Assembly (NCBI RefSeq): GCF_000190315.1
Contig: NC_015151.1
Coordinates: 1,426,001-1,490,000, forward strand
Length of the DNA stretch: 64,000 bases
Source of the DNA: Vulcanisaeta moutnovskia 768-28
Lineage (GTDB): Archaea; Thermoproteota; Thermoprotei; Thermoproteales; Thermocladiaceae
Direction: 5' to 3'
A program made the position numbers and the translations under genes. This document shows, piece by piece, positions 952 through 52,397 of this stretch (its first letter is position 1; every line of letters starts with the position of its first letter). A model generated the notes under the pieces. It was not told where the DNA came from, did not search any database, and worked only from the letters and a program-made list of their open reading frames with translations.

Positions 952-1554
952 TCAAGCCCTCCACCATTCGAAGGCCACGTAGTGCATCTTACCATCAACC
1001 TCGCTCTGCGTTGCCAGGACAAACCTCTTATTAACACTGTGACTAAGCCTTGCGGCTCTCGTTATATCGAGGGCACTGACAGCCCTCCTCGGCTCAATGA
1101 AGTGCAACAGGACTGGCGCGTGGTCAATCCCTGGTCCTCTTTCGTAAACAGCGAATAATGAACCAAACTTAAGCCCGCTCTTTACGACGAAGCCCCCATC
1201 CCTTAACTCTCTATAAATAGTGTATACCTGGTCGAAGTTAGTCACGGTATTATGACCAACCTTAACCAAGTCATCCCTCGTGAGTTTATTACCATTACAA
1301 TCAAAAACCTCCAGGAATCCCTTATCCACTAGATACAGGGCCTCAATAATTGATAGTTGCAGTGGTGAATTAACGTTATTAACCTCACTGAGCTTAACCT
1401 TATCCTCATTAACGAACTTCCCATAAAAACCCATTGAGTAAAGCTTCCTAGCATCATTAATGTCCGTAACAACCACAGCACTACCTATTAAATAACCCTT
1501 GAACACATCATGACTATATAGGGGACTATTAAAAACCAAACCCCATCTATCCAT
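952..1554 (-). CDS. endA: tRNA-splicing endonuclease, catalytic subunit
   Basis: A 200-residue archaeal tRNA intron endonuclease. It cuts precursor RNAs at bulge-helix-bulge motifs, releasing tRNA introns and probably maturing pre-rRNA. The C-terminal catalytic half is intact. The block FAVYERGPGIDHAP supplies the candidate Tyr137 and His145, and SVNKRFVLA supplies Lys176, so this is the catalytic rather than the structural subunit. The N-terminal half (about 1-90) is the usual diverged domain. Crenarchaeal enzymes usually pair with a second paralogous subunit, which I do not see here. The gene is on the same strand as the next two small genes. The rRNA stems at the other end of this window carry bulge-helix-bulge-like motifs, which are its natural type of substrate. 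Confidence 0.88.
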   Translation of the reverse strand: MDRWGLVFNSPLYSHDVFKGYLIGSAVVVTDINDARKLYSMGFYGKFVNEDKVKLSEVNNVNSPLQLSIIEALYLVDKGFLEVFDCNGNKLTRDDLVKVGHNTVTNFDQVYTIYRELRDGGFVVKSGLKFGSLFAVYERGPGIDHAPVLLHFIEPRRAVSALDITRAARLSHSVNKRFVLATQSEVDGKMHYVAFEWWRA

Positions 1555-1572: not shown

Positions 1573-1941
1573 TCATTCCCTTGGAGCCCTAACTGTGGCT
1601 ATGCTCATATCAGCAACGCCCAACCTCCTCATCTCCTCCTCATTGCACCAAACCTCATTCCTCGGCACATCCTCACTGGGTACTACCGCGAACACGTACT
1701 TCCTCTCCCTAGAGCCACCACCAACAAGCACCACCTCCACTCTATCCGTTATCTCGAGTTCCCTCATCACATCAGGGTTCATCTTAGCCTTACCCTCATC
1801 CACATCATTCCTACGCCTAATCCTCAACCTCCTCTCACGCCTCTCCCTCTTCTCCTCAGGCTTAATGCCACTTGGCGTTAGGAAACCTGGTATTAACAAC
1901 TTCCGCGCTGGTTTACCCTCGCTTGGCTTGCTCTCGCTCAT
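1573..1941 (-). CDS. Small basic conserved protein (WCNE motif), unknown function
   Basis: A 122-residue protein with a lysine/arginine-rich N-terminal part (about 1-45, including EEKRERRERRLRIRRR) and a compact domain (about 46-120). The domain has the pattern NPDVMRELEITDRVEV, PSEDVP and EVWCNEEE. The NPxVMxEL-I-D-VEV segment resembles the start of a double-psi beta-barrel such as the Cdc48 N-domain, but that is inference. The same domain, about 40% identical by eye, is inserted in the Cmr1 protein encoded at 38099-39607. The gene lies 18 bp downstream-side of endA on the same strand and probably shares its transcript. It looks like a housekeeping protein, possibly nucleic-acid binding because of its basic tail. 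I know no named function. Confidence 0.72.
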   Translation of the reverse strand: MSESKPSEGKPARKLLIPGFLTPSGIKPEEKRERRERRLRIRRRNDVDEGKAKMNPDVMRELEITDRVEVVLVGGGSRERKYVFAVVPSEDVPRNEVWCNEEEMRRLGVADMSIATVRAPRE

Positions 1942-26273: not shown

Positions 26274-27135
26274 CTTTCAACATTCTATTGAAATCAACAA
26301 GCCCTACCAGGCGGAGCAAATGAGGGTAGAGGAAGTAGTGAGGACTTTCAATATTCTATTGAAATCAACAAATTGGGATGCGATTATGGTGATGGTGAAT
26401 GAAACTAAAGTGTGTAGACCCTTTCAATATTCTATTGAAATCAACAAGTGGCAATGGCATCGCCACTTTCAAGACCGTCAGCGTTCACTTTCAATATTCT
26501 ATTGAAATCAACCATTATTTTGATAAAGACCCTGTAAGTGACGGTTACATAGACATCTTTCAATATTCTATTGAAATCAACTAACCACGAGATTATTTTT
26601 CAGATTGCTAGTTTATTTCCGTAGCTTTCAATATTCTATTGAAATCAACTATTGAACCGTCAGCGTTGTTGTAGCCGTGGATAATGATTGCGTTCTTTCA
26701 ATATTCTATTGAAATCAACTACAAAAACGAAGTCAACGAATTTTGGGAACTGTGTAAAAATAATCCCTTTCAATATTCTATTGAAATCAACTGGGTAAGT
26801 AGCATCACCAGCCACAACACAAGCAGGTTCACGCTTTCAATATTCTATTGAAATCAACAAGGAGGAGCACGGTGACGACCCAAGGGGCGAGCTCTTCATG
26901 ATACTTTCAATATTCTATTGAAATCAACATGGAGAGCTGTTTGATAAGGCGTTGAAGTGGTGGAATTCACGCCTTTCAATATTCTATTGAAATCAACCTC
27001 AACAATCTCCTTACACGGGAGTCATAAATCCTGGATCATATCTTTCAATATTCTATTGAAATCAACAATGTTTTCAGCCTCGTTGTACGTGGGAATCACC
27101 GTACAAAGATCTTTCAATATTCTATTGAAATCAAC
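26274..27135 (-). CRISPR. CRISPR array 1: 13 repeats, 12 spacers
   Basis: Thirteen 25-bp repeats of plus-strand form CTTTCAATATTC...GAAATCAAC, separated by 42-51-bp spacers. The left-most repeat (26274) has a T-to-C change (CAACATTC), marking the leader-distal end. The leader is on the right, so transcription is on the minus strand. The transcribed repeat ends in ATTGAAAG, the usual 8-nt crRNA 5' handle. Translations of this stretch into peptides with repeated FQYSIEIN are artefacts. The repeat sequence is shared with array 2. Confidence 0.98.
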
Positions 27136-30978: not shown

Positions 30979-32304
30979 TCAAGCCTGCTTATACCTCAAG
31001 CCCAGCTTATTAAGCACGACATCATCAACATCCAAGCAGTAATCATCGTCGCATTTCTCTACATACGTGCAATCCTTAAGCAGCCCCGCATGAGCAATGG
31101 CATTCCTCTCGAAAACCTCATCCCTCTCCCCCGAACCACACTTGATAAACTCCTCCCCCAACAATTCCGCGTAGAGCACCTTATCCTTTACCAATTTACC
31201 ACTCCTCTGGATAGCATTGCCCAGGTTATTCAGCTCGTTTATTACCAACTTGCCAACTACTTCATTCACCTTACTGTACAGTTTAGACGCATCACTCATC
31301 AACGCGTACAGCTTATTCCTCGATTTACCACATATTAAGTCCTCAAGGGCTTCCTCGTAATAATCCATGTACTTACCACGCACGCCGCTGTAGTCAACCC
31401 TCATCACCTCCTTACCGCCCTCATCGTCCCTTCTTACCTCAATTCTTACATTAACCCCTTGTAAATGCCCCTTACCCTTCGATCTTTGACCACACAGTTT
31501 ATGCACAATTATCGGCAGACCCATACTGAAGGCCTTGACTACGGGCGATGAGGGCCCTTCAGGCAATACTATGGTCCTCACCCGCTCACTAAATACCTTT
31601 ATGTAATTCCATGTCTGCGGCATCGCGTTAAACACCTTTATGATGACTTCATCGACGCCCTTGAGCAGTGCCAGCGATGCGGCGAGTCTGGTGGCGAACA
31701 ACGTCAGTGTTGGCATGAAGTTTATTCCATGCGTCACGTCGAGTATTACTTTCACGTGTTCGTCTTCATTGACGACGTCATTAATGGCGCTCCACAGCTC
31801 GTGTATGAGCTCCATCATCATTAGGTCAGGGTAACTGTTGTAAATCCACGTATTTATCCCGTAGTACTTGCCCATGGTTGACGTTATAACAACCCTAAGC
31901 TTATCATCATTAATACCCCACCTATTGGCTAGCCTTCTTACGTATTCCTCAACAATCGATCTCCACACTTTATCATAATTACCGCTGGTTGGCTCAACCA
32001 TAACCGTCAATTTACCCTCCCCACCTCCCTCCTCCCTTAACTGCACCTTTCCGTCTTGTTTCAGGCTCTTGAGCACTTCATAAGCATCATTATTCTTTGG
32101 CTGCGTACTAACGGTTATGACGCTGTCAACCACGTATATTACGTACCTATCGACCTTATCCCTATTAATACACACCATTGACGAGTACCCACGCGCCCTA
32201 CCGCTTCTCACAGCATCATCCTCACCGTCGCAGGCGTACTCAACATTGTCCCAACTTAGTGGGTTTCCCCAGGTCGCTATGTATATAGTCTTTGTACTGG
32301 TCAT
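30979..32304 (-). CDS. csx1: Csx1 family cyclic-oligoadenylate-activated RNase (CARF-HEPN), intact
   Basis: A 441-residue type III ancillary effector. The N-terminal CARF domain (about 1-240) starts IYIATWGNPLSW and contains VKVILDVTHGINFMPTLT, the cOA-binding signature. The C-terminal HEPN domain carries RNAIAHAGLL near residue 405, the catalytic RX4H motif. It would be switched on by cyclic oligoadenylate made by Cas10 and cut RNA non-specifically in the cytoplasm. The start overlaps the cmr3 stop by 4 bp, so it is part of the cas10-cmr3-csx1 operon. It is the only one of three csx1 genes in the window with an unbroken frame. Confidence 0.88.
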   Translation of the reverse strand: MTSTKTIYIATWGNPLSWDNVEYACDGEDDAVRSGRARGYSSMVCINRDKVDRYVIYVVDSVITVSTQPKNNDAYEVLKSLKQDGKVQLREEGGGEGKLTVMVEPTSGNYDKVWRSIVEEYVRRLANRWGINDDKLRVVITSTMGKYYGINTWIYNSYPDLMMMELIHELWSAINDVVNEDEHVKVILDVTHGINFMPTLTLFATRLAASLALLKGVDEVIIKVFNAMPQTWNYIKVFSERVRTIVLPEGPSSPVVKAFSMGLPIIVHKLCGQRSKGKGHLQGVNVRIEVRRDDEGGKEVMRVDYSGVRGKYMDYYEEALEDLICGKSRNKLYALMSDASKLYSKVNEVVGKLVINELNNLGNAIQRSGKLVKDKVLYAELLGEEFIKCGSGERDEVFERNAIAHAGLLKDCTYVEKCDDDYCLDVDDVVLNKLGLRYKQA

Positions 32305-33266
32305 AGCGACACCCTATATATGGATCCATAGCCAAGCTCCGAAAGCAGCCCTATCGCCAACGCATCCCTGCACTCATCCTTAAGCCTCACCACAGTCCCC
32401 TGAGGCAATGCCTGAAGTATGGGCCTCCTAAACCTGCAGACCTCGCTAAACCCAAGCCCAATGTTAATCACCCTAACCTTAAACTTCTCCCCATCAAAAA
32501 CCCCATAAACCTCCTCAACACACTTCAAGCCCCTTACATTACCCACATCAGCCGTGGGGTCTTCGCTACTGAAGAGAATAGGCTGCAGGGCCACTGCGTA
32601 TTTGCCAGCCCTGGGTGGTTCAACGTTATTACCACCTTCAATTAATGCAAACCTACCCTCACCCCCAAGTCTAATTACTATATCTGAGGTTAGGTTAAGG
32701 TTCTTTAATAGGTATATGAACTTAACATCGTGGTCCCTATAGTTTACGTACGATGACTTAAACATGGCTTCAGTAACATGGGCATCGCCTATGTCTACCC
32801 CAACCCTAGTATTTATACTAGCGTATTGGATAAACATTTTATTAAGCTCATCAATTAGTTTCTTCGCCTCATCCTGACCCCTCATGGAGGCGTTTACGTA
32901 TGCTTTAAGCCCATCGACCCCTATGGCCCTTATACCCATAGGCGCGTAATACTTGCCGTCAATGAGCAGTAGAGGTCCCCATAGGCACGGCTCCTGGCTT
33001 AGTAAATCACCTAGGTTGGGGCTACAGTTGAGGAGCTTATGAGCCAGTTGCTTTAGGTCATCAAAATCGTACACGCCGCCTTTAACCTTACCGCAATCAA
33101 TGCTAAGCGATATATCCATGGCATTACCTAGGGCACCTAGTATGGTGCTCGGTGGCGGTACTGCGGTTGATTCGTCTGTGAAGAATTCCTCAGCGGTTCC
33201 TAGATTCCTAACACCGAGGTGTAGTGGCTCCAGGGGCCTTACCTGAACCACCCTATATGCGCTCAT
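32301..33266 (-). CDS. cmr3: Cmr3 (type III-B Cas5-group subunit)
   Basis: A 321-residue Cmr3, the RAMP subunit that caps the 5' handle of the crRNA and contacts Cas10. The N-terminal family pattern is clear: VVQVRPLEPLHLGVRNLG, then TDESTAVPPPSTILGALGNA and the CLWGPLLLIDGKYYAP region. The C-terminal LLSELGYGSIYRVSL includes the glycine-containing loop. It overlaps cas10 upstream (4 bp) and csx1 downstream (4 bp). Size and order fit a III-B locus. Confidence 0.87.
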   Translation of the reverse strand: MSAYRVVQVRPLEPLHLGVRNLGTAEEFFTDESTAVPPPSTILGALGNAMDISLSIDCGKVKGGVYDFDDLKQLAHKLLNCSPNLGDLLSQEPCLWGPLLLIDGKYYAPMGIRAIGVDGLKAYVNASMRGQDEAKKLIDELNKMFIQYASINTRVGVDIGDAHVTEAMFKSSYVNYRDHDVKFIYLLKNLNLTSDIVIRLGGEGRFALIEGGNNVEPPRAGKYAVALQPILFSSEDPTADVGNVRGLKCVEEVYGVFDGEKFKVRVINIGLGFSEVCRFRRPILQALPQGTVVRLKDECRDALAIGLLSELGYGSIYRVSL

Positions 33267-36200
33267 GGGTACCCCCTCAACACCCTGTAAGCCTTTACTA
33301 ATTCATTAATCAGGTAGCTGCCGCTGGGGGAGGCCTTAATCTCTAATCTAGCTGCCGCATCAATGCCGGTAATGTTGGCGAGATTGCTTAGTGAGAATAG
33401 TTCAGCAACCTTAGATTCATACTCACGAGATTCAGCGTTCCTCCTAATTATGAGGCCCCATACATCGTTAAGCACATCACCTCTATTACTTACTACTAAT
33501 TGGTTTATTAACTGCAGGTATTCATCAAAGTCCTCAGGTAGGTTACCGCTAAGTACCTTACCTAACCTAGCTATGAATAACTGATTCAGGGCGTCAATCA
33601 TATTGGCGACGCTTCCCTGTTTACCATCACTAAGCGGTATGACCGCCCTCATGCCTGTTCTGGATTCGCTTATCGTTAAGGTATCTTTCTTAAGACGCAC
33701 TTGGTTAAGTGACCACTCGGCCTTTTTACTAATGCCCTCAAGCAATTCAATGGTCTCCTTCACCTCCTCATTCATGTTATCCATAATGTTTACGAACCTA
33801 ACGGAAAAACTTCTACCAAAACCCCCAATTACGGGGGCCGCTATGTGGTAGCCATCACCGATTCTATGGAATCCGCCATCACCCCAATAATTCCTACGCA
33901 TATCCCTAACAGTGGTGAGGGAGGTCTCCACGGGGGTTAAGGCTAATACATCATCACCACCGCTGAATATTAGGCCTTTAACCGCGTATTTATACTCTGT
34001 TATGTATATGTCCCTGAGGGCCGTAATCATTAGGGCCATTGATAGGGTAGCTAGGTAAGTTGGGCTCACTATTAACCCGCCTAACCCATGCATGACAGAA
34101 CTTAACTTAGCATAAGCATCGCTTAACTCACGTGCGCCAGCATTCTCAGCCACCTTAGATAACTCTGTGAGTAGCTTATAGTAGCCATCTAGTGGTATAT
34201 CACCCTTACTTAATTCACCGATATTATCCGCATCACCCTTAATTATTGCGTAATAGGATCTAAATTTGAGTAACGAATCGTCAACTCCCTTAATTAATGC
34301 CCTTAGAGAATCGTCAATGTCTAGATCACGGCTAAGCTCATTAATGAGTTTAACCTTATCATCATGGCTTATGGATGCTTTATCGATGCAACTATTAAAT
34401 AACCTGCGCGCCACCTCTAGGGTGCATTCTAAGCCGCATATCTTCGTAATGTCCTTAGGCGGCTCACCGACAATATAATCCTTAACATTCCTGCACTCCC
34501 TGTGCTCATCAGAATTAGGTAATTTACTAACGACATAGCCGCTTATTCTCATATCGTACCATGCGAAGGCCACGTCCTCCGTGCTATCAAATGACGTATA
34601 TCTACCTCTCTTAAGCCTATAGTATAGTGTCCTCTTAAGCAGGCAAAGTGGCCCCAGGGCCTCGCCGGGCTTCACCCTGAATCTAAGGTTACCAATTTCA
34701 TCATCTGTTGTAAGTTCTAGTGATTTTTTAAGCATATCAATGGTGTCGTCTGCGTAATTAAGGCCCCCTGGCGCTTTCCTTAAATGCACTATTGCAGGCT
34801 CCTCACCGCATATGGAACAGTATATGAACCCCACATCCTCCCTATTAGCCTTCTTAAACACATACTCACTATACGCATCCACATTATCTGCAGTAATAGG
34901 TTTCTTAATAGTGGAGTCGTTGTAGTGGAACCATGCCTTACCCACCGTGAGCCTCTTCCTAGCCCTTACCTGGGCCACCTTGTTTAGGATTCGTAGACCC
35001 ATATGCATTATTAAGAACTTTGCCAACTCCTCATCACTCACCTCCACACCCTTCTCCCTAAGCGTTTCCCTGAGTTCACGCGGTAATCTTAACTTACTGG
35101 ACCTGTCTTCGCTAAACATCTTTAAGTCATCCCCCGTTAACTCAACTCCGCCTATTAGGCATTTGTCGGAGGCACCCCTTATGTGGCTTAGTAAGCATTC
35201 ATACACGTCATGGAGGTTTACCGCATTGATCCTTACGCTTATTAAATCTTTGAAAACGCCACTTTTATTAAGCATGCTATATAGTTTTCTTGAGATTTTA
35301 AGTAACGTATCGCCTCCATCGTCTATTTTCCGGGGCAGCACATCTGTGCAGTATTTGTCATTAACCTCACCATTAAATGCTAAGTTTAATAAGCAATTAT
35401 ATGCTCTTTCAAAGTTCCCACTAAGGATCTCCACCACCTTGCCTTCATCCGATGCGGCAATGCTCGGCATTATAAGCGTCATTGTTCCAGGTATGATGGG
35501 TTCCCTAATGAATTGTTGGGTAATATCCGTTTCCTTAACATCTATATTAATCATTGTTTTAAGGTAAAACCTAGATGTGATGTTCTTAATGGTATCAATA
35601 ATGTTATCCCTTTCTAACGTTCTTGGTAATGTTCTTGATAATGCCCCGATTAGGGTTGCGTGGTATATTGGGTTAAGCCTAAGTGTGGGCCTTATGACTA
35701 GGTCAGGTCCGTACTCCCACACCAGTGGCCACACGGTGAGCCAGGCGAGCATGGATACGAGCCAACTACCAACCCAGAAGTCGCCGGCCTTCCTGGCTGA
35801 ATTAACTATCCTCTGTATGCCCGGTATGTCAACCTCCACCAGATAGCCATTAACCTCACCATCGGACCACAGCATGTTGATGGTTAAGGCGGTGGCGTAG
35901 CTGTGGTCAAACACAGTATGCGTAGGCATTCTAGTGTCCGCTAAACTTGGCGGCAACCCCTCATTAATCCACGTTAACTCGTAAAGCGCGTAAAGCGCAT
36001 GGTACTTCACCCTAGCTTTTTCAACATTATCATTGAAGTTGGAGAGGCTGTTCATTACGCTACGTAAAGTCTCGACGTGGCGTGAAACCGCCCCGCAGTC
36101 CACGTTATTGGGGAGCTCTATTGAATAGCTTGGGTTGAAGATGTTATGCAACTTACTATACCTGAAGACACCCCCCTGGCTCACCGCTTCGCCAAGTAGC

Positions 36201-36469
36201 CACCTATCCATTGACGATGCGACAGCGTCGGCGTGTTTAACAAGCCTATAGGCTGGGTCGTTAACGTCATGCATGTCTCCGAGGGGGTCTGTTAAGCCTA
36301 GCTTATACCAAATGGCCGCCGCCTCATCCTCATGGGCCCCCGTTCTTAGGTATTGCTCATGAAGGCACCTACCCTTACCCATAATGACCCACATCTTGTT
36401 GGATGGATCGTGGAGCAGCGCCCAGGCCTTCGCCTTGAAGTACTTAAGCCAATCAAAGCCACTACTCAT
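33263..36469 (-). CDS. cas10: Cas10/Cmr2 (type III-B large subunit)
   Basis: A 1068-residue large subunit. Near the N-terminus ALLHDPSNK (His20-Asp21) is the HD nuclease motif. A zinc site CSIC is visible at about 568. The first Palm domain has IIKGDADNIG near 745, and the second Palm has SGGDDVLAL at about 836, the intact GGDD cyclase motif. It should therefore sense target RNA, make cyclic oligoadenylate and perhaps cleave single-stranded DNA. First gene of the minus-strand block. A TATA box (36488-36500) lies 25 nt before the ATG and is back to back with the cmr4 promoter. Confidence 0.92.
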   Translation of the reverse strand: MSSGFDWLKYFKAKAWALLHDPSNKMWVIMGKGRCLHEQYLRTGAHEDEAAAIWYKLGLTDPLGDMHDVNDPAYRLVKHADAVASSMDRWLLGEAVSQGGVFRYSKLHNIFNPSYSIELPNNVDCGAVSRHVETLRSVMNSLSNFNDNVEKARVKYHALYALYELTWINEGLPPSLADTRMPTHTVFDHSYATALTINMLWSDGEVNGYLVEVDIPGIQRIVNSARKAGDFWVGSWLVSMLAWLTVWPLVWEYGPDLVIRPTLRLNPIYHATLIGALSRTLPRTLERDNIIDTIKNITSRFYLKTMINIDVKETDITQQFIREPIIPGTMTLIMPSIAASDEGKVVEILSGNFERAYNCLLNLAFNGEVNDKYCTDVLPRKIDDGGDTLLKISRKLYSMLNKSGVFKDLISVRINAVNLHDVYECLLSHIRGASDKCLIGGVELTGDDLKMFSEDRSSKLRLPRELRETLREKGVEVSDEELAKFLIMHMGLRILNKVAQVRARKRLTVGKAWFHYNDSTIKKPITADNVDAYSEYVFKKANREDVGFIYCSICGEEPAIVHLRKAPGGLNYADDTIDMLKKSLELTTDDEIGNLRFRVKPGEALGPLCLLKRTLYYRLKRGRYTSFDSTEDVAFAWYDMRISGYVVSKLPNSDEHRECRNVKDYIVGEPPKDITKICGLECTLEVARRLFNSCIDKASISHDDKVKLINELSRDLDIDDSLRALIKGVDDSLLKFRSYYAIIKGDADNIGELSKGDIPLDGYYKLLTELSKVAENAGARELSDAYAKLSSVMHGLGGLIVSPTYLATLSMALMITALRDIYITEYKYAVKGLIFSGGDDVLALTPVETSLTTVRDMRRNYWGDGGFHRIGDGYHIAAPVIGGFGRSFSVRFVNIMDNMNEEVKETIELLEGISKKAEWSLNQVRLKKDTLTISESRTGMRAVIPLSDGKQGSVANMIDALNQLFIARLGKVLSGNLPEDFDEYLQLINQLVVSNRGDVLNDVWGLIIRRNAESREYESKVAELFSLSNLANITGIDAAARLEIKASPSGSYLINELVKAYRVLRGYP

Positions 36470-36487
36470 TATACTTGGGACTTCCTT

Positions 36488-36539
36488 ACGCTTTTAAGCA
36501 TTAAGCATGGTTGCGTACTACGTAAAGCTTTAAAATTTA
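36488..36539. promoter_or_regulatory. Divergent promoters of the two Cmr blocks
   Basis: On the minus strand a GCTTAAAAGCG box (36488-36500) is about 25 nt from the cas10 ATG at 36469. On the plus strand an AAAGCTTTAAAATTT box (36527-36539) is about 24 nt from the cmr4 ATG at 36557. Both spacings fit leaderless transcripts and a shared regulatory gap of under 90 bp. Confidence 0.65.
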
Positions 36540-36556
36540 CGTTGGGTATCTATGCA

Positions 36557-37612
36557 ATGAGTCAGCAAGCGCAGAGACAGGGGGTACAAGAGGCTAGGTC
36601 CTTATTATTCATTGAGGCCTTGACACCAATGCACCCGGGCCTTGGTAGGGGTGGTGAGGGCTTCGTAGACCTGCCGATACAGAGGGATGAGTTCGGATTC
36701 CCAACGATATGGGCGAGCAGCCTTAAGGGTGCCATTAAGTCCTCACTACTCCTATCCTGCAATAACGAGGCTGATAATGTTGAGAGGGCTGTGTGTAGGA
36801 GGAGGGTGCTGCTAGCCTTCGGGCCCGAGACTGAGGAGGCCTCTGAATACGTATCATCAATCTCGATACTCGATGCCAGGCTAGTGCTGGTACCGGCCAG
36901 GTCGCTGAGGGGTGTGTGGACCTACGTAACGTCGCCACACCTCCTCAATTACCTAGCGACGTATCTTGAGATTGTCGGTGATAAAGAAAGGCTTAGTGCC
37001 CTAAGGGAAGTGCTTAACCTCGTTAGGGGTAGGAATGCGGTGACCAGCAGGAAGGAGGTTTTGGTGGGTTCTGGTGGGCAGAGCTACGTGGTACTTAACG
37101 AGCAGGAGTTAGCCGCGGAGCATTCGGATGCGCTTACTAAGCTAGGTGAATTACTTCCACGTGAGGTATCTGATCTCGTTAAGGAGAGAGGAGTCACAGT
37201 GATTAGCGATGAGCTTGTGAACAATATAGTTAGGAGGAGCCTCGTGATTCAGCCCAGGATAAGGCTAGACTACGCGAGCAAGACCGTGGTAAGCGGTGGA
37301 TTGTGGGAGGAGGAGTACCTACCACAATTTACCGTGCTAGCATCCGTAATCATATGTAGAAGGATTAGACTTGCAGGATTGCCCGACAACGAGTTGAAAG
37401 AGAGGCTAAATCAATTAGCTGATAATGACTCTAAGAATAAGAAATATGGTAATGTTAGCAAAGATGAATTGATTAAGGCATACGACGACTTAATTCACAA
37501 TAAATTAGTAGATGCAAACAGCGTATGCAGCGATGTTAAGTCCCTGAGATCCATGGCGTTTGGAGGTAAGGAGACCGTGGGTAAGGGATTGGCGAGGCTC
37601 ATGTGGGTTTAG
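36557..37612 (+). CDS. cmr4: Cmr4 (type III-B Cas7, backbone and RNA cleavage subunit)
   Basis: A 351-residue Cas7-group RAMP that forms the filament along the crRNA. In active complexes it cuts target RNA at 6-nt intervals. The N-terminal block FIEALTPMHPGLGRGGEGFVDLPIQRDEFGFPTIWASSLKGAIK has the family motifs, including the Asp-containing loop and SSLKG. The C-terminal FGGKETVGKGLARLMW supplies the glycine-rich loop. I start at ATG 36557, which fits the TATA box 24 nt upstream; the longer frame to 36353 would overlap cas10 antisense. The cleavage Asp is probably in FVDLPIQRD. Confidence 0.88.
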   Translation: MSQQAQRQGVQEARSLLFIEALTPMHPGLGRGGEGFVDLPIQRDEFGFPTIWASSLKGAIKSSLLLSCNNEADNVERAVCRRRVLLAFGPETEEASEYVSSISILDARLVLVPARSLRGVWTYVTSPHLLNYLATYLEIVGDKERLSALREVLNLVRGRNAVTSRKEVLVGSGGQSYVVLNEQELAAEHSDALTKLGELLPREVSDLVKERGVTVISDELVNNIVRRSLVIQPRIRLDYASKTVVSGGLWEEEYLPQFTVLASVIICRRIRLAGLPDNELKERLNQLADNDSKNKKYGNVSKDELIKAYDDLIHNKLVDANSVCSDVKSLRSMAFGGKETVGKGLARLMWV

Positions 37613-38098
37613 GTGAAGCCTATGCAGGCCCAAAACAACGCCCTTGACTTAGCAATCAGGTGCATGGACACGGTTAAGCAAGTCTTCGGCAATAAGGGCG
37701 ACATACCGGAGGGCTTTAGGTCAAGGGCCAGGGACATCCCATCAAGCCTCTATTACGGCGGTGTGCTCTATACGTTAGCCTACGTAGCCTCAAAGGCAAG
37801 CAAGGACAAGGCCTCCGGCGACGACCTGCTCATGCAAGCCTTCCAACGTGATGACATGGTGACCCTCTTTAAGGAGTGGTTTGAGAAAAAACTTGTCGAG
37901 GATGAGGCGTATGAACTGTACGGTGCCTGCCTAATGAGGGCGATCAGGGAGTTGGTGGGGATTGGTAAGGCAAACTCCCTGACGGACATCTTGAGGATGC
38001 TGAACGAGCCGGGGATGGGCATAATCGCCGAGAGGAGGCTCCTAGAGTTCGCCGAGTGGCTTAAGAGGTTGGCGGAAGCCGTGGTGCAGAAGGGGTGA
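37613..38098 (+). CDS. cmr5: Cmr5 (type III-B small subunit, Cas11)
   Basis: A 161-residue all-helical small subunit. The family hallmark is FRSRARDIPSSLYYGGVLYTLAYVASKA (about residues 35-62), contacting target RNA along the filament. The GTG start follows the cmr4 stop with no gap; ATG 37622 is an alternative. Order cmr4-cmr5-cmr1-cmr6 with zero or negative spacing shows one transcript. Confidence 0.85.
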   Translation: MKPMQAQNNALDLAIRCMDTVKQVFGNKGDIPEGFRSRARDIPSSLYYGGVLYTLAYVASKASKDKASGDDLLMQAFQRDDMVTLFKEWFEKKLVEDEAYELYGACLMRAIRELVGIGKANSLTDILRMLNEPGMGIIAERRLLEFAEWLKRLAEAVVQKG

Positions 38099-39607
38099 TT
38101 GGCCTTGGCCTATGTGGAACTAAGCCTAACCCTGGACACCCCATTCCTGCCAGGCTCAGCGGACCCAAACAGGGTTGACCCGGACTGGCCATTGAGGCCC
38201 AGTGAGGTTAAGGGGATTTGGCGCTGGTGGGCTAGGGCATTGGTGGCCGGCGCACTCTTCGAGAGGGGACTACTGCACGGCGAGCCAACGTCAAGCATAG
38301 TTAAGGTCCCCACTAGTGAGGAAGCATCGTGCATCTCGAGAATTGTTGGCTTAAATCTAGAACTCGGCTATGCCGGTAAGCGTGACTCGAGGGCTTCATG
38401 CATTAGAATCATAATTAACCCTGATGATCAACAACTCTTACCCTCTCAATTAATTACTGATGAATTAATTAATATATTTCAAAGAATTAAGCTATTAACT
38501 TTGAGAAAGAGCAAAAAGGTAAAGGTCAAGTATAGAAGCGATATCGATAGGGGTAAAGTTAAAGTGAACCCTGAGGTTATGAAAGAGCTTGATATTGAGG
38601 ATAAGATTGAGATTATCATAAAAAGTAAGTTCAAAAGAAAATCAAGGAAAAACATATTCATTGCAATACCTAGTGATGATGTTCCTAAGGGTGAAATTTG
38701 GTGCAATGAAAACGATGCGAAAAAATTAGGCATTAACAATAATACTGTCATTATTAGAGCACCGATATCGCTTGAATATATTGCCGTTAATAGGACAATA
38801 AAGCTCATAATTGATAAGAACCCATTCTGTAAACTTAATGGAGCGGCTGTAGAGGCATCACTGAGCGCCCTGGCCCTCGCCCTAAAGTATTCATGCTTTG
38901 GTAAGGGTGGTAGAAGAGGCCTTGGATGCTTTAGCATCAATGCTTCTGGTCCTTATTCAAAATTATTCATGATGGATGCTAAGGAATTAATAAACTACGC
39001 AGTTGAGAGAGTGAGTAAAGTCGTGGATTCCGCGATCAAGGACTGCAGGTTGAAGGAGAGTAAGTTGGATAAGTGCGAGTTGCCACCAATGCCCGTCATT
39101 AGTAAGGGCATTAATTACATAGACTGCGTCGAAAATAGTGAGGTAAGGAACTCAATAAGCAAGGCCCTAAACAACGCTCTACACCCATACATGCTTATTA
39201 AGGTGACTGGGCCCAACGTGTTGGACACGCTACATAACTTCTTCCTGAGACCCCGCAGGACTATTGCGCTCCTCGGCAGTCATCACCGGAATGATGATCT
39301 AAGGGCCACGTACAACGCTTGGGTGCTGGGCCTACCTAGGGAGCAGAAAAATACTGGCTACATGATTAAGTCCAGCGATGTGAGCAGGAGGGCGTCGCCG
39401 TTCATTGTCTCGGTCCACGGCGATAGGGCCTACGTGAGCGTATTCACGTCTGCCGACTGGCCCACGCAGCTTGAGTGGCGTGGCGCTGGTTCGCAAAGTA
39501 TAAGTGTAAACCAGGGTAGGGTCATAAATGCCATAGCCATAGCACTTAAGGAGCTGATCGACTATTCAAGTAAGAGCGGGCTTCAGGTGGTGAGGGTATG
39601 GCCGTAG
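38099..39607 (+). CDS. cmr1: Cmr1 with an inserted WCNE domain
   Basis: A 502-residue Cmr1, the RAMP at the 3' end of the crRNA. The N-terminal half has the diagnostic SEVKGIWRWWARALVAG (about 35-51). The C-terminal half has FGKGGRRGLGCF (about 262-275), the glycine-rich loop. Between them, about residues 137-222 form a foreign-looking domain (KVNPEVMKELDIEDKIEI, IPSDDVPKGEIWCNENDAKKLG, IIRAP). It aligns with the free-standing 122-residue protein at 1573-1941. DNA of the insert and its flanks is visibly more A/T-rich than the rest of the gene. The start is TTG 38099. The rest of the protein looks functional and overlaps cmr6 by 10 bp. Confidence 0.83.
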   Translation: MALAYVELSLTLDTPFLPGSADPNRVDPDWPLRPSEVKGIWRWWARALVAGALFERGLLHGEPTSSIVKVPTSEEASCISRIVGLNLELGYAGKRDSRASCIRIIINPDDQQLLPSQLITDELINIFQRIKLLTLRKSKKVKVKYRSDIDRGKVKVNPEVMKELDIEDKIEIIIKSKFKRKSRKNIFIAIPSDDVPKGEIWCNENDAKKLGINNNTVIIRAPISLEYIAVNRTIKLIIDKNPFCKLNGAAVEASLSALALALKYSCFGKGGRRGLGCFSINASGPYSKLFMMDAKELINYAVERVSKVVDSAIKDCRLKESKLDKCELPPMPVISKGINYIDCVENSEVRNSISKALNNALHPYMLIKVTGPNVLDTLHNFFLRPRRTIALLGSHHRNDDLRATYNAWVLGLPREQKNTGYMIKSSDVSRRASPFIVSVHGDRAYVSVFTSADWPTQLEWRGAGSQSISVNQGRVINAIAIALKELIDYSSKSGLQVVRVWP

Positions 39608-40461
39608 ATTTACTGAGGGGCCTATCACCTTCACCGACCGTTAACGTATCGAGTTACCTAAGGCTTGGGCTCATAAACCTAGTCATGAGTAGACGCCAGG
39701 GGCAAAGGGTGGGTAAGGGACGCAGCGGTGAGAACCTTAAGGACGCACTTAATGAGTATAATAGGGACGCAATGAGGCTCATAACTGAGGTCTACAGGTG
39801 CGACAATGTTGGTGAACTGCTCAGGAGGGTTGATGATTGGGTTAAGGAGGAGGTCGAGGCGCTGGAGGACTTGGGGTATGGGGTCGTGTTTAACGCCGTG
39901 ATACCGCTAATGACCAGGTTGGCCATTGGGTTGAGGCACCCTTACACGGAGCCCCTTGAGCCAGCAATAGCCTGGGACCCGTACTGGAACCTACCCTACA
40001 TACCGGCCTCATCGCTTAAGGGCGCCATGAGGTCTATAGCGGAGACGAACAACCACCCGTGCGCAAAGGCGCTCGGCGAGCGAAATGAGGCGTCTACCGT
40101 GGTGGTCCTAGACTCATACCCAACGTACTGCCCACCGGGTAGGGGCCTACTCACGCTCGACATAATAAATCCACACTACAAGGAGGTAAGTGGTGAAATA
40201 AGCGAGGCCGAGTCAAACCCAACACCGCTGGTTTTCCTAACGGTATCAAGGGGCGTGGGATTCAGGGTAGTCATACTCACAGCCAGGAATAGGCTCAGGG
40301 AGAAATGCGGTGGCGCGGTTGCGGAGGACTACGTATACGCAGACGCCAAGTGTAATAAGGCATGTACAGTGAAGGAGTTGGAGTGGCTAATCAATAAGGC
40401 CCTCCAAGGCGGCATAGGCGCGAAGACGGCCTTGGGCTACGGAGTGTTCAAGGTGCAATGA
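39598..40461 (+). CDS. cmr6: Cmr6 (type III-B RAMP subunit)
   Basis: A 287-residue Cas7-like RAMP near the 3' end of the crRNA. Conserved features: a helical N-terminal half, then AVIPLMTRLAIGLRHPYTEP, the hallmark LPYIPASSLKGAMRS (about residues 140-154), DSYPTYCPPGRGLLTLDIINPHY, and the C-terminal GGIGAKTALGYGVFKV glycine-rich loop. It closes the cmr4-5-1-6 block. Downstream, a very AT-rich 50 bp separates it from the ATPase cassette, which has its own promoter. Confidence 0.87.
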   Translation: MAVDLLRGLSPSPTVNVSSYLRLGLINLVMSRRQGQRVGKGRSGENLKDALNEYNRDAMRLITEVYRCDNVGELLRRVDDWVKEEVEALEDLGYGVVFNAVIPLMTRLAIGLRHPYTEPLEPAIAWDPYWNLPYIPASSLKGAMRSIAETNNHPCAKALGERNEASTVVVLDSYPTYCPPGRGLLTLDIINPHYKEVSGEISEAESNPTPLVFLTVSRGVGFRVVILTARNRLREKCGGAVAEDYVYADAKCNKACTVKELEWLINKALQGGIGAKTALGYGVFKVQ

Positions 40462-40512: not shown

Positions 40513-41496
40513 ATGGTTTCTATCGAATTAACGCTTATAGGCATAGGCCCCATAGCGGAAGAGGCGACAATAAGTATTACAGATGGGATCGTACTGCTCT
40601 ACGGCCCTAATGGCGCCGGCAAGTCAACGATAATGAGGGCGCTGGCGTATGCGTTAAGTGCGTTGATGGGTTATGAGGTGCAAGTAGGGGAGTTAATGGA
40701 AATGGTGAATAAGGAGAGGAGAGTAGGTGAGATAAGGATCAAGATTGACGGTTCGCGGTACTCAATAAGTATTGACGCTAGTAATAAGGAAATAATAGTG
40801 AAAAGAGGCGATGAGGAGTTAACGAGGATCAAGATAACGACGTCTGTAGGCATCGTATCAATACCAAGCTTACAAAGAATATACCCAATACTGCAGGTTA
40901 AACCGATGGGTGTAATAAAAGTATTAGGGCTTACTGATGAGATACGCTCTCAAATCGAGTCCTTCAGAGACTTACTCCTGCCAGGTACGGTGGAGAAGGT
41001 GCTGTCTTCGCGACTCATCATCAGTAGTAGTGAGATAGCTAAGGTGTATAGTGAGTACCTTGACGCAGTTAATACTGCACTCAATTACGTGGTTAATTAT
41101 GACCTAAAATTAGTCGGTGACGTGCCTTACTTCGTAGATCTAAGCCGTAATTTAACCCACTACATTAAATATGAGTATGTTGCCGACGGCGTTAAACAAG
41201 CCCTCACAATAATTACGGCCGCCGAGTTTGCAGAATTACTTCGCAGGTATGGTTCAGCACCAATACTACTCATTGATGATGTAGAGACCGCACTACACTA
41301 CGACTACTTAATATCGCTGCTTCAATACCTCGCCAAGAGACAGTACCCAGTGATCCTAGAGACCCACAACAGCTTAGCGTTGAGGTACGTATATGACAAT
41401 AAACTTAGATTCTACGTGGTGGAGGGTGGCAAGGCCTTCACGGACATAAAATCAAGCTCATTATTCAAGAGGGAAGTAATCGTATATAGCATGTGA
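40513..41496 (+). CDS. AAA/ABC-type ATPase, Cmr-linked accessory protein
   Basis: A 327-residue ATPase of the AAA15/AAA21 (OLD/RecF-like) group. Walker A is LLYGPNGAGKST (about residues 28-39). There is a signature-like VADGVKQALTIITAAEFAELL (about 235-255). Walker B is PILLIDDVETALHYDYL, with Asp-Asp where Asp-Glu is usual. The switch His is in VILETHNSLALRY. There is little room for a coiled coil or effector domain, so it probably powers a separate partner. Its stop overlaps the GTG of a PD-(D/E)xK nuclease-like gene (GTGA). I infer a type III-linked accessory cassette acting on nucleic acid; the exact role is unknown. Confidence 0.75.
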   Translation: MVSIELTLIGIGPIAEEATISITDGIVLLYGPNGAGKSTIMRALAYALSALMGYEVQVGELMEMVNKERRVGEIRIKIDGSRYSISIDASNKEIIVKRGDEELTRIKITTSVGIVSIPSLQRIYPILQVKPMGVIKVLGLTDEIRSQIESFRDLLLPGTVEKVLSSRLIISSSEIAKVYSEYLDAVNTALNYVVNYDLKLVGDVPYFVDLSRNLTHYIKYEYVADGVKQALTIITAAEFAELLRRYGSAPILLIDDVETALHYDYLISLLQYLAKRQYPVILETHNSLALRYVYDNKLRFYVVEGGKAFTDIKSSSLFKREVIVYSM

Positions 41497-43581: not shown

Positions 43582-43787
43582 CCGCAAGGCACCTCTTAGG
43601 AAAATCAGCCTCATTACTAACCCCCACACTCACTCTCCCAAGAACCAAGCTAGCCCAGCTTTTTTCATAACCCTAAATCAACAGAACCCCCGAACTTACT
43701 ACAGGCAAAGACAATACCACATCAAAATTCCTCGGAAATCAACATACCCTAAGCAATCGCAGAGAAATACCTAACTAAGCAATCAAT

Positions 43788-44870
43788 CCTTCAACATTCT
43801 ATTGAAATCAACTTGATAATAATCAAGCCCGATGGTTCACTACTTGTTCATACTAATGACTTTCAATATTTTATTGAAATCAACCTGTTTGAGCTTGTGC
43901 CTGCTATTTTGGCGCGAGACATACATAAGGCTTTCAATATTCTATTGAAATCAACTCTACACGGCGTACACTCTCGACCCGACGAGCGTCAAGGACTGCG
44001 AGAACTTTCAATATTCTATTGAAATCAACGAAGAATTGCGTGAGGTGATGGTGCGTGGCACAAAACAATTGGACTTTCAATATTCTATTGAAATCAACAC
44101 GAATTGAACGATATTGTAGCAAATATGCGCGACATTGCAACTTTCAATATTCTATTGAAATCAACACCCAGAGGAAAGCATTGAGGAATACTGTGATTGT
44201 GAGTGTAGCTTTCAACATTCTATTGAAATCAACCGTGATAGTTATGTCAGAGGGAAAGGCAAGCGTGAAGGAATGCTTTCAATATTCTATTGAAATCAAC
44301 TTAAGACTTATTCAAAAGCAGCGCTGCCTGATGGGAGAGTCCTTAATCTTTCAATATTCTATTGAAATCAACACGAAGAACCACGGTTTTCCAATATCCG
44401 TTGACGACTTAATACAGTACCTTTCAATATTCTATTGAAATCAACAAGGTACATAATAGTGATGTCAGAGCAGTACCTGGACTTCTTGCTTACTTTCAAT
44501 ATTCTATTGAAATCAACGAAACGTGATAATTGAAATATACCAAAATGAATCATGTGTGTGTAACTGCTTTCAATATTCTATTGAAATCAACCGTACTGCT
44601 CATTAACCGCCGCAGGCTGTGTACCTATTGGCGCTTTCAATATTCTATTGAAATCAACCCGAGGACAATATGGGTACCGACCTAGGTGGTGGAGCCACAA
44701 TGTATGCTTTCAATATTCTATTGAAATCAACTGAAAACACATGACCACAACCCAAACCGAAAACCTTGGGGAAACCCACTTTCAATATTCTATTGAAATC
44801 AACTCCTGGGAATCCACATTACATTGCAAGTGTGCAGATTATAGACTTTCAATATTCTATTGAAATCAAC
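43788..44870 (-). CRISPR. CRISPR array 2: 16 clear repeats, 15 spacers
   Basis: Sixteen 25-bp repeats of the same type as array 1, spacers 41-50 bp. Variants occur at the left end (CCTTCAACATTC at 43788; TTTTATTG at 43860) and at 44209 (CAACATTC). The degenerate left end and the leader on the right give transcription on the minus strand. A further, heavily decayed repeat is likely at 43719-43743 with a normal-length spacer between (see findings). Shares repeat and leader with array 1. Confidence 0.98.
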
Positions 44871-45060
44871 CGATTCGCCACTTTATTAGCCCATTTATAA
44901 GCATTACCCATACCCTCGGCTTGGTATTCATCAGAGCGGGTATTCCCACGATCATTCACGGTGTGGGCTTGTTCCAACGGTGTTTATTAGGAATTGATTG
45001 GTATTCCCACGTTAACATTCAATTTTGCAATAATGTGGGTGTTCCAACGAGCCTTATTTA
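44871..45060 (-). promoter_or_regulatory. CRISPR leader 2
   Basis: The first ~53 bp after the initial base equal leader 1. The TATA box on the minus strand (44892-44905) would start transcription at the array edge. Further out it has GTTCCAACGG at 44971, ATTAGGAATTGATT at 44988, CCCACG, and GTTCCAACGAGCCTT at 45041, 171 bp from the array exactly as in leader 1. A TATA-like GCTTTTAAATCC near 45078 on the plus strand serves cas6. Confidence 0.8.
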
Positions 45061-45091: not shown

Positions 45092-45937
45092 GTGCGCCTT
45101 GGCTTTGTGGGTGTTGTTTTTGTTTTCCGCATTGCCCTTAGGCCCTCGTCAGCTCTCGTTTTAACCAACTTCACAGGCTCCATAGCCATGTCCGTGACCC
45201 TGAACATACTGGGCACGGTGGATGCCGAGCTGGCTAGGCGTATTCACGACTCGAGGGGTCCAAAGCCCATGAGCGTCACACCACTCACGCTTAGGGGCAA
45301 GGTACTGTGGAGAGGTAGGCACATCATCGCTCCTGGCGAGGCGGTTCAATTCAGGGTATCGGCGCTAGGTGATGTGGGCGTTAAGCTCCTGGACGCACTG
45401 GATAGGACCAATGAGGCGAGGCTCTTCGGCGTCAATGCAAGGGTCGAGGTGTTGGGTGCGGAGGTGGTTAGGCTGGGTGAGTTGTTCAGCCCTGGGCCCA
45501 GCTCCTTCGGTGTTGAGTTCCTATCGCCGATTAGGTTTGCTAGGAGGAGGACCATGAGGCGTAGGAGGGTTAAGTATGAGTTCTGCCCAAACATTGAGAA
45601 CATAATCAAGTCAACACTGAACTACTGGCTTAGGACCATCGGCGATGGAGAGTTCAGGGACTGGCCCAGGCTCCTGAGGTGGGTCTATAACTACGTCTAC
45701 ACGAGGGATATATACGGCAGGGTGGTGTCCACGAAACTACCAAACAGCGACCAACCGCAGCTGGGCTTCATCGGTAGGGCCGAGTACGAGATAAGGAGCA
45801 AGAGGGAGGGCAGGATAAGGCAGTTCTGGGCATTGATGAGGCTCGCCGAGTTGATGAACACGGGGACCACGAGGTCGATAGGCTTCGGACACATAAAAAT
45901 AACAAGCACAAAGACAAAACAAGCACCAAGGCAATAA
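45092..45937 (+). CDS. cas6: Cas6 CRISPR RNA endoribonuclease
   Basis: A 281-residue Cas6 of the ferredoxin-fold RAMP type. It cuts the repeat RNA to release crRNAs with an 8-nt 5' handle, serving all three arrays. The N-terminal strand is VFVFRIALRPSSALVLTNFTG. The C-terminal glycine-rich loop is TTRSIGFGHIKI (about residues 258-270). The start is uncertain: GTG 45092 or GTG 45107; the second lies 25 nt after the TATA-like CTTTTAAATCC and begins nearer the conserved strand. It is the only cas6 that I find in the window and faces away from array 2. Confidence 0.82.
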   Translation: MRLGFVGVVFVFRIALRPSSALVLTNFTGSIAMSVTLNILGTVDAELARRIHDSRGPKPMSVTPLTLRGKVLWRGRHIIAPGEAVQFRVSALGDVGVKLLDALDRTNEARLFGVNARVEVLGAEVVRLGELFSPGPSSFGVEFLSPIRFARRRTMRRRRVKYEFCPNIENIIKSTLNYWLRTIGDGEFRDWPRLLRWVYNYVYTRDIYGRVVSTKLPNSDQPQLGFIGRAEYEIRSKREGRIRQFWALMRLAELMNTGTTRSIGFGHIKITSTKTKQAPRQ

Positions 45938-46919: not shown

Positions 46920-49172
46920 CTAAGTTTGCCTGCTTATTTTGCGGTATAGGTCTATCTTCATTATTGCCTTCGCCAGCGATTTCATCAACTCCGTTAATTC
47001 CCTCGACCTTACATACTCACTGCAGTCCCTGATCCTCAGTATTGGCATTAGCGCATTCGTTAGTCTCCCTGGCTCTACATTACTTGAGATTTCGTTTATT
47101 ACCGCATAAGCCCTATCCCTATTCCTATTGACCAGGTATGTGTAGTTGACCACGCCCCTAACCAGCTCCCTGACCAGCTCATTCCTTGATCCGCACCGAC
47201 CCTGCCTAGCTAATGCGTACAATGCGTACAGCATGTTATAGATGTTGGTTAGTTCCTCACCCACCTTAAACATCAACGACTTACCAATCACGTCACCTTC
47301 GTACTCGCCGGGTGGTGCCGCGGTATTCGCATTTACGTAGTCTACGACCTCTAGCACATCGCTTGGTGTCAGTATTATCGGCGCACTACCCGTGTGTGCC
47401 AGGTATATCAGTGGCTCATCCCTACTTACGTCCTTCACAGCCTCAAGCCTCTCATCGGTCTCATCCCACACTAGGTACATTGGCATCTGTGGCTCGTGAA
47501 TCAACGCACCTGCGGCAACGCTTATCCCGAAGTCCAAAGCCCTCCTCATGACCCTCGCGATGTAGTCCAAGGCTCTGTGGTCACCCGCTATGAATATGTC
47601 ATCGCCGCCGCTGTAGATTATGAAAACGTTGTTCCCGTACCTACCCAGGTTTTGCGTAAAGAGCCAGGGGCCGTAGGCGTCGAATACGGTGGTCAATAAC
47701 GTACTGAAGAATAGGTACGCCGCCGCGCCGCGCTCGGCAGCCCCCTTCTTGAAGATGCCCATCTTGTTTGCGTCGGCCTTCACCGATATGGCGTAGTTAC
47801 CGATGTCCTCCAGCGTGAGTAGGTCGCCGGTGTCCTGGCTGATGGGCATCCTAGTGTTTAGGAATAGTACTGAGTAACCCACGTTGCTTGCCCTGAGTAT
47901 TGGGTTTTGAAACTCGTTAATGCCGTAATGAATGTACTCCCTCCCCAAATCCGCACGGGCGTTATCGGGGCACACTGCGTACCTTATGCCAAGGAGTTCA
48001 ATAACTTCGCAACCCCCATACCCGCCAGAGTCCCTAAGCTCCGCCATGAAGCCGAGTCTCCTACTCGCTGTACCAACCCTGTGCGAGTAATGACAAAATG
48101 GGCATAGCCTAAGTTCCTCACCGCCAATGGTCTCTACACTCAATTTACCAGTGGGCATACCACACATACTGCACAGGTGCTTACCACCGACGGAGAACCT
48201 CCTCCAGATACCGTACCTCCTCCTTCCCAGGGCTGCCACAAGCTCCCTCAACACATCACCGAACCTGTTACCGATGTCGTGGATCCCCGTGTACGCGACA
48301 ACCACCCTAACCCTACCCTCGAACTCCTCATTTACTTTGGACTCAATGTCATTTATCACGTAATCCAGGACATTGCTGTCCAGACCGGGTATTAGCATTA
48401 CCACCTCGCCGCCCGTGTTCACGAGCACATTAATCGGGCTAAGGACGTCACTCCCCACCCTCCTATTCACATCCCTAATTATCCTAACAGCCACCGCATT
48501 CTGAAAGAGGTTCACGAGGACGGACCTACCCCTCAACTGCCTCATCGCCTGCCCAGTCCTCTGTATCCTACCTATGACCTCCTGAATTCCCAGGATATCC
48601 ACCCCGAGAAGCCTAAAACGGCCGTAGGGCTCGGTCGACGCGTAAGCCGCCGCCGTGTGCATCACGGCATACGCCGAGATCCCACTACCAACGCCACAGG
48701 TCGAGTAAGGCACATAGGAAAGGACCAACCTACCTATGGTCAGTAGGGTCGTCATTAACTGCTCCTTATCCATAGACAACGCCCCTAACCTAGCCACATA
48801 ATCATCCAAGGCGCTGACGATGGTTTTGTAACCATCCCTCGCACTTACGCCACCCTCAACAACACTACGCATTAGGGCTGGGCCGACCCTAACCTCCTTA
48901 CCGAAGAGGTCTATGATTAATTGACCATCACCACACCCATCGCTGGGCTCCGGACCCTGTATCGCAGCCTCTATATAACTCCTAAGCCCTGCGGCTCCAT
49001 TGGCCAGGGCCTTACGAACATCACCCACATTGACCCCGGCCGATGTGAATACATTACTTAACTGCTCGAGGTATTTGTTGGCGTGGTCCCTGGGCTCGCC
49101 GCCGAGTGCCCTCGACCTGACCCTACCCATCACTAGGAGCATCACGGACAACACGCTGGGCCACGCGCTCAT
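46920..49172 (-). CDS. cas10: Cas10/Csm1 (type III-A large subunit) without visible HD motif
   Basis: A 750-residue large subunit of the Csm complex. The N-terminus (MSAWPSVLSVMLLVMGRVRSRALGG) lacks the His-Asp pair that begins HD domains. A zinc site CSMC with CPFC is visible at about 335-360. The first Palm motif is KADANKMG near 466, and the second is YSGGDDIFIAG at about 519, so the cyclase site is intact. It should signal by cyclic oligoadenylate but probably not cut DNA. Last gene of the csm2-3-4-5-cas10 operon (4-bp overlap with csm5). Confidence 0.88.
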   Translation of the reverse strand: MSAWPSVLSVMLLVMGRVRSRALGGEPRDHANKYLEQLSNVFTSAGVNVGDVRKALANGAAGLRSYIEAAIQGPEPSDGCGDGQLIIDLFGKEVRVGPALMRSVVEGGVSARDGYKTIVSALDDYVARLGALSMDKEQLMTTLLTIGRLVLSYVPYSTCGVGSGISAYAVMHTAAAYASTEPYGRFRLLGVDILGIQEVIGRIQRTGQAMRQLRGRSVLVNLFQNAVAVRIIRDVNRRVGSDVLSPINVLVNTGGEVVMLIPGLDSNVLDYVINDIESKVNEEFEGRVRVVVAYTGIHDIGNRFGDVLRELVAALGRRRYGIWRRFSVGGKHLCSMCGMPTGKLSVETIGGEELRLCPFCHYSHRVGTASRRLGFMAELRDSGGYGGCEVIELLGIRYAVCPDNARADLGREYIHYGINEFQNPILRASNVGYSVLFLNTRMPISQDTGDLLTLEDIGNYAISVKADANKMGIFKKGAAERGAAAYLFFSTLLTTVFDAYGPWLFTQNLGRYGNNVFIIYSGGDDIFIAGDHRALDYIARVMRRALDFGISVAAGALIHEPQMPMYLVWDETDERLEAVKDVSRDEPLIYLAHTGSAPIILTPSDVLEVVDYVNANTAAPPGEYEGDVIGKSLMFKVGEELTNIYNMLYALYALARQGRCGSRNELVRELVRGVVNYTYLVNRNRDRAYAVINEISSNVEPGRLTNALMPILRIRDCSEYVRSRELTELMKSLAKAIMKIDLYRKISRQT

Positions 49173-50131
49173 GGTACCACCCTAATACATGCCACACCAA
49201 CGACCTGCCCCTTCGCAAGCCTTATCGTTGAGTCTCCCCAGGGCTTACCGAGGTAACTGCTCATAAGTCTCGTGACCTCCTCGTACAGTCCCCTATCGAA
49301 CCTCTCCAGCAGGGTTATCACGGTCTTCCACCTCCTGCCGGCGCCATAGCCTATCCTAACCACGAAGCCGTTGTCACAGCTAGGGAGCTTGACATTCCTA
49401 CCGATCTCAAAGGCCGAGATATCGCTACTAAACTCACTAAGGGCCTTGACCAGGGCATTCTCAAGGGCCTCATCCTTCCTCACGATCCCGACCTTGATCT
49501 CGTAACTAACCTCTACACCGGGCCTAAGCCCTATCGCCATTACCTGGTACCTACCCTCCAAATCCCTGATGCAATACACCCCATAATCACTGGTGCTCGG
49601 CTTAGTGAGTTGCCTAACGAGGACCTTATTGAACACATCCCTCTCAAACACCCTCTCCTCCTCCTCGAAGGTCCTAACAACCCTCTCCCTCATTACCCCA
49701 GCCTCGGCATTTACCGAGAGCCTATTTAACCTACGTGGACTAGCCCCACCAACCGCCTCCCTAACCTCTTCAAAGAACAGCCTCCGCCTCTCGGCATCAC
49801 CCTTAAGCAGCCAGTATAGGTACGCCGTCCTCAGCATGCCCTTAACCTCACTCGCAGGAATACCCTCAGGGTTGTGATCAAGGACCTCGCCCGTACCACA
49901 CCCCTCCTCAATTGAGTAGCTACGGCTTGAGTAAGCCCCTGGATTCCTCATCACTAGATTCTTCATTACATAGTCGTAATCGACATGGGCACCGCCGAGA
50001 ACACCAGCATTGACCCTCCCCAGGTCTATAACGTACAGTGCGCCCCCCGAAACCACCGCATCAACACCAAGCACTAGCTTGTTTCCGCTCAGTACGAAGG
50101 TTGGCGACTTAACAAGTATGGTGAGCCTCAT
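49169..50131 (-). CDS. csm5: Csm5 (type III-A RAMP subunit)
   Basis: A 320-residue RAMP matching Csm5, which binds the 3' part of the crRNA and helps its final trimming. Recognisable parts are an N-terminal beta strand (TILVKSPTFVLSGNKLVLG), the IPASEVKGMLRTAYLYWL block (about residues 95-112), and the C-terminal GFVVRIGYGAGRRWKTVITLL with its glycine-rich loop. It overlaps csm4 by 23 bp and cas10 by 4 bp in a tight operon. Confidence 0.82.
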   Translation of the reverse strand: MRLTILVKSPTFVLSGNKLVLGVDAVVSGGALYVIDLGRVNAGVLGGAHVDYDYVMKNLVMRNPGAYSSRSYSIEEGCGTGEVLDHNPEGIPASEVKGMLRTAYLYWLLKGDAERRRLFFEEVREAVGGASPRRLNRLSVNAEAGVMRERVVRTFEEEERVFERDVFNKVLVRQLTKPSTSDYGVYCIRDLEGRYQVMAIGLRPGVEVSYEIKVGIVRKDEALENALVKALSEFSSDISAFEIGRNVKLPSCDNGFVVRIGYGAGRRWKTVITLLERFDRGLYEEVTRLMSSYLGKPWGDSTIRLAKGQVVGVACIRVVP

Positions 50132-52377: not shown

Positions 52378-52397
52378 ACCTTTTATATAAGTCATAA

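Follow-up and report, generated by a model that had tools for sequence, protein, structure and literature searches.

The window analysed here, a stretch of 64,000 nucleotides (positions 1426001-1490000) of the complete 2,298,983-base genome of the hot-spring archaeon Vulcanisaeta moutnovskia 768-28, contains a type III-B CRISPR locus. The set around cmr1 is complete, with Cmr3, Cas10, Cmr4, Cmr5, Cmr1 and Cmr6 (Table 1), and the order of the Cmr operon is identical at a second locus used for comparison (L120). The cmr1 product was recognized by PADLOC as Cmr1 (2e-29) and matched the RAMPs family of Pfam (1e-8; 36 bits, over the cut-off of 22), while the NCBIfam model TIGR01894 gave 22.8 bits, below its cut-off of 28.65. 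It was 44 to 59% identical to four Cmr1 proteins of the same family, and the part of it outside the inserted domain described below also matched Cmr1/RAMP models. By its sequence, its RAMP fold and the context of the Cmr operon, this protein is Cmr1.

Several other features of the region were recorded. A gene encoding an AAA-type ATPase (40513-41496) follows cmr6, as it does in V. distributa and Caldivirga RSNS23. The type III-B locus is adjoined at 46920-52395 by another type III cas cluster, which encodes a Cas10a-like protein and has additional RAMP-like ORFs. An ORF at 26164-26505 is built of CRISPR-like repeats, which suggests another array. Among the relatives, the V. distributa JCM 11216 contig has frame-split Cmr1, Cas10 and Cmr6, and the Cmr1 of genome G012 has an in-frame TAG (loci L124:1-9200 and L103); both may be assembly errors.

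Table 1. Features of the window; positions are counted from its first base. DPBB, double-psi beta-barrel.
Feature	Position	Strand	Evidence
tRNA-splicing endonuclease EndA, conserved neighbour of the free DPBB gene	952..1554	-	Pfam PF01974, 9e-25
Free DPBB protein, 122 aa, single copy in the class	1573..1941	-	
DPBB domain of the free protein, residues 34-122	1576..1842	-	
Cmr3	32301..33266	-	NCBIfam TIGR01888, 5e-13, below the curated cut-off
Cas10/Cmr2	33263..36469	-	PADLOC
Cmr4, start uncertain	36401..37612	+	PADLOC
Cmr5	37613..38098	+	PADLOC
Cmr1, 502 aa, TTG start, with inserted domain	38099..39607	+	PADLOC, Pfam, relatives
Low-GC block, wider than the insert	38380..~38830	.	
Inserted domain (predicted DPBB), Cmr1 residues ~139-223	38513..38767	+	Absent in sister Cmr1s; predicted fold
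Core of homology to the free protein, Cmr1 residues 147-222	38537..38764	+	BLASTP
Cmr6, head partner of Cmr1	39598..40461	+	PADLOC
CRISPR array, 16 repeat copies of ~25 nt, spacing 67-74 nt	43780..44877	+	
Cas6	45092..45937	+	PADLOC

The original prediction, made from the DNA sequence, was that a domain of the small protein encoded at 1573-1941 has a copy inside Cmr1, at 38507-38764. This was borne out. In a BLASTP comparison, residues 147 to 222 of Cmr1 matched residues 45 to 120 of the free protein with 43% identity over 77 amino acids and 75% positives (E 5e-23). A profile of 14 free orthologues found the insert with a probability of 99.5 and an E value of 1.8e-22 over 83 columns. Against a profile built without the insert, the insert scored 84.4 bits and Cmr1 minus the insert gave no score; the reversed insert scored 3.0 bits, which excludes chance similarity. 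The predicted coordinates were also right, since relatives without the insert placed its limits at 38513-38767: the sister Cmr1 of genome G004 (59% identical) aligns to residues 4-138 and continues directly at residues 224-491. When seven close Cmr1 relatives of the same family were compared, two had a long insert, and the others joined residue 138 to residue 224 directly or nearly so. The loop concerned was 12 to 15 residues long in 17 of 19 aligned Cmr1s, 98 in the window Cmr1 and 109 in that of Caldivirga RSNS23. The segment is absent from nearly all compared Cmr1s and therefore lies outside the ordinary Cmr1 fold. Ordinary type III-B Cmr1 proteins share all other regions and the operon context with the window Cmr1, but 17 of the 19 have no long insert at the loop, and the alignment with relatives agreed with the prediction that Cmr1 outside the insert has retained its conserved motifs. 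What was copied is the globular domain, ending no more than 2 residues from the end of the free protein, and the 33-residue N-terminal tail was left out. These comparisons confirmed that the insert is a clean, in-frame copy of the domain of a conserved free-standing protein, and showed that the insertion site is a loop of the N-terminal RAMP domain of Cmr1. A search restricted to open-licence papers found no description of a Cmr1 with such an insert. Searches of viral contigs with the free-family profile and the insert, of plasmids with Cmr1 and of phages with the insert gave zero matches; therefore, no mobile-element source is known for the insert.

The free protein was present in exactly one copy in 43 of 43 good genomes of the class and was found in 147 of 349 good genomes of the phylum. 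The only second copy in 81 genomes was the one inside Cmr1. Its gene belongs to a recurrent glyS-DPBB-endA cluster in Thermoproteales and Sulfolobales, located after the gene for glycyl-tRNA synthetase and before or near that for the tRNA-splicing endonuclease. The Vulcanisaeta gene retains the endonuclease gene as a neighbour, without the synthetase gene next to it; a gene for a small B-box-like zinc protein lies upstream of the free gene there (1573-2273). Neither a solved structure nor a named family was found for the free protein.

The insert is up to 47% identical to the free Thermoproteota proteins across the whole domain. Among the free copies it was nearest to those of Vulcanisaeta, both by identity and by path length, and AU tests rejected neither a placement inside the free copies nor one outside them. 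It keeps the fold-related signature of the free family (RGK, NPEVM, VPKGEIWCNE and LG). In contrast to the free proteins, it is more basic and lacks the ADN...T motif, the GGGSRE loop, which is a trait of the Thermocladiaceae-type copies of the free family, and the N-terminal tail (KLLIPxFLxP; nothing in the insert corresponds to residues 1 to 33 of the window's free protein, which include KLLIPGFLTP). Because the tail and the GGGSRE loop are absent, the insert is a derived domain, not an orthologue. These losses bear on the possibility that the insert keeps the partner of the free protein and docks the Cmr complex on the ribosome, GlyRS or EndA, near translated viral RNA. Such tethering would fit a free protein that all good genomes of the class have and that is encoded within the glyS-DPBB-endA cluster, and the nearest solved relative of the insert is a ribosomal domain (see below). 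However, about 8 of the 15 near-invariant columns of the free family, including the GGGSRE loop and ADN...T, were lost in the insert along with the tail, and the distance between the insert and the free protein is about 1.4 changes per site. We therefore consider tethering unlikely.

The fold of the insert was modelled with AlphaFold2. The isolated insert, modelled with the window's free copy, gave two beta-beta-alpha-beta units with a pLDDT of 84.6. The best PDB match of the model in Foldseek was the Saccharolobus ribosomal protein eS6 (9fhl chain G; E 2.5e-7, TM 0.80), followed by CDC48-type and designed DPBBs. In Pfam, the insert and the free protein gave matches below threshold to two DPBB families, and an orthologue of the free protein from another order exceeded the Molydop_binding cut-off. 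The N-terminal DPBB of CDC48/VAT has the same fold as the insert (TM 0.7-0.76), but its sequence match to the insert is weak, with 18.8 bits for CDC48_N (PF02359) against a Pfam cut-off of 35.1. The insert was thus predicted to be a complete DPBB that has kept its fold. The profile matches of the free family pointed to a DPBB as well, so that neither this comparison nor that of the Cmr1 loops refuted the original prediction. The main further fold matches, the CDC48-type DPBBs, are protein-binding domains. The insert could accordingly be a protein-protein module in the Cmr head that stabilizes Cmr1-Cmr6 or recruits an accessory protein of the locus, and an AAA-type ATPase gene does follow cmr6 both here and in Caldivirga RSNS23. 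However, that gene is also found near the insert-less Cmr1 of V. distributa and therefore does not track the insert; we regard a role of this kind as quite improbable.

The insert had also been described as clearly A/T-rich. Its GC content was indeed 32.5%, compared with 52.6% for the free gene, but the low GC is not specific to it: the low-GC block starts about 110 to 130 bases ahead of the insert, and residues 101 to 138 of Cmr1, with 27% GC, are low as well, so that low GC does not mark the insert alone. Low GC as a sign of foreign origin was rejected. The net charge was +8 for the insert, +1 for the free domain and +7 for the Caldivirga insert; the lysine content of the insert is partly due to its low GC.

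We next compared the insert with the free domain residue by residue. Over 83 residues, 34 were identical and 31 were conservatively replaced. Conservative changes thus made up 31 of the 49 replacements, against a mean of 10 and a maximum of 19 in shuffles. The identities with the free gene at the three codon positions were 0.64, 0.69 and 0.43, the third positions being the least alike. The branch lengths were 1.39 for the insert and about 0.07 for the free protein, most of the divergence being on the branch of the insert. With nearly all the divergence on this branch and the replacements conservative, the insert has therefore been retained as a protein domain that folds. It could still be an ornament, inserted in frame by chance into a permissive loop, tolerated because it can fold and at most stabilizing. 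The loop is variable, with about 23 extra residues in SisCmr1 (6s6b_J), sister Cmr1s do without the insert, and in type III-E a comparable Cas7 insertion could be truncated with activity unaffected (PMC11026444), a result that also counts against the RNA-contacting role proposed below. However, replacements that stayed strongly conservative despite a long divergence, and two Cmr1s with DPBB-family inserts at the same loop, make a tolerated ornament somewhat unlikely.

The second of these Cmr1s, that of Caldivirga RSNS23, means that the window Cmr1 is not unique, in contrast to the original prediction, which knew of no Cmr1 with such a domain. A profile that left out the window insert gave the RSNS23 insert 15.5 bits, a value reached by 0 of 1979 shuffles. 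With the window insert included in the profile, the RSNS23 insert had an E value of 0.0057 among the 2888 ORFs of the fetched loci; the hits shown in this set beyond the free proteins were the window Cmr1, domain 2 of eS6 and the RSNS23 Cmr1. The model of the RSNS23 insert was poor (pLDDT 54), with a DPBB-like order of elements and no fold match under E 0.001. Judged by its sequence, the RSNS23 Cmr1 probably carries a diverged insert of the DPBB family at the same loop. In the Cmr1 tree, the window Cmr1 is sister to the insert-less UBA161 Cmr1 (support 100/99). A topology with the two insert-bearing Cmr1s as sisters was rejected (p 0.008). A clade of both insert-bearing Cmr1s and UBA161 was not rejected and had weak support (55/89). 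Since this three-member clade was not rejected, a history of the Cmr1 insert with a single gain and a loss takes as many steps as one with two gains.

The best fold match pointed to eS6. According to PMC11698992, eS6 has an inserted DPBB, "domain 2" (residues 12 to 115), in Sulfolobales and related orders; this domain is absent in Thermoproteales and is located near the rRNA helices h6, h10 and h44. When 16 genomes were searched with the free-family profile, the free gene was found in all of them, and a second ORF of the size of eS6 was found in 15, where it was the sole other target at E<=0.01. Those whose sequences were inspected (L142-L155) were eS6 with an insert, one of them backed by Pfam. 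A Sulfolobales eS6 scored 20.7 bits against a profile free of the window insert. The window genome's own eS6 ORF, at no more than 159 aa, is too short for domain 2. Domain 2 of eS6 is thus distantly related to the free DPBB protein, a connection not made in the passages of PMC11698992 used here. Like the Cmr1 insert, it is a DPBB that is found with the free-family profile and sits inside an RNA-binding host, and it is the top fold match; unlike it, it resides in a ribosomal protein, in Sulfolobales and related orders, and the identity is about 20%. The DPBB family may have been captured repeatedly in Thermoproteota as an RNA-contacting module, into eS6 in one lineage and independently more than once into Cmr1, at the same loop. 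We hold this to be possible, though doubtful; if true, the ribosome and a CRISPR effector would share a plug-in domain.

Two roles had been suggested for the insert, nucleic-acid or protein contact at the crRNA 3' end and a tie to the process that the free protein serves. The second was weakened by the loss from the insert of the tail and of about half the near-invariant residues. Contact with nucleic acid near the crRNA 3' end is the likelier one in view of the charge of the insert and of the literature. The exposed 3' end of the crRNA, or seed, where target binding begins, is held by Cmr1 and Cmr6 (PMC8376896), and in the Cas7-insertion subunit of type III-Dv the inserted domain has a positive pocket that cradles this end (PMC11026444). 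This Cas7-insertion subunit is likewise a Cas7-like subunit with a large domain at the crRNA 3' end; it belongs to a different system, and its likeness to the Cmr1 insert is one of architecture, with no homology claimed. The predicted fold, the charge of +8, the position at Cmr1/Cmr6 and the type III-Dv parallel therefore favour an RNA-contacting surface. In the proposed mechanism, target pairing would start at the crRNA 3' end under a cap formed by Cmr1 and Cmr6, and the strongly basic insert would add a second RNA-contacting surface there. This surface may give a further hold on the exposed 3' end of the crRNA or on the target RNA as it arrives, working like the positively charged type III-Dv domain and like the inserted DPBB of eS6. 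Only one close copy of the insert is available, and conservation over its surface is therefore unreadable. The likeliest of the readings, with a probability of roughly 0.42, is that the insert is a captured module that may contact RNA at the Cmr1/Cmr6 seed end.

A module of the translation type is built into a subunit of an RNA-targeting CRISPR complex, with counterparts beside tRNA-related genes and in eS6. A type III-B Cas7-like subunit is thereby documented to have acquired, at the end where the complex begins to recognize its target, an intact domain of a conserved family of cellular proteins. The inserted domain of Cmr1 is tied to a DPBB recently seen in crenarchaeal eS6. The finding also draws attention to the uncharacterized protein of the glyS-endA cluster, which all good genomes of the class encode.
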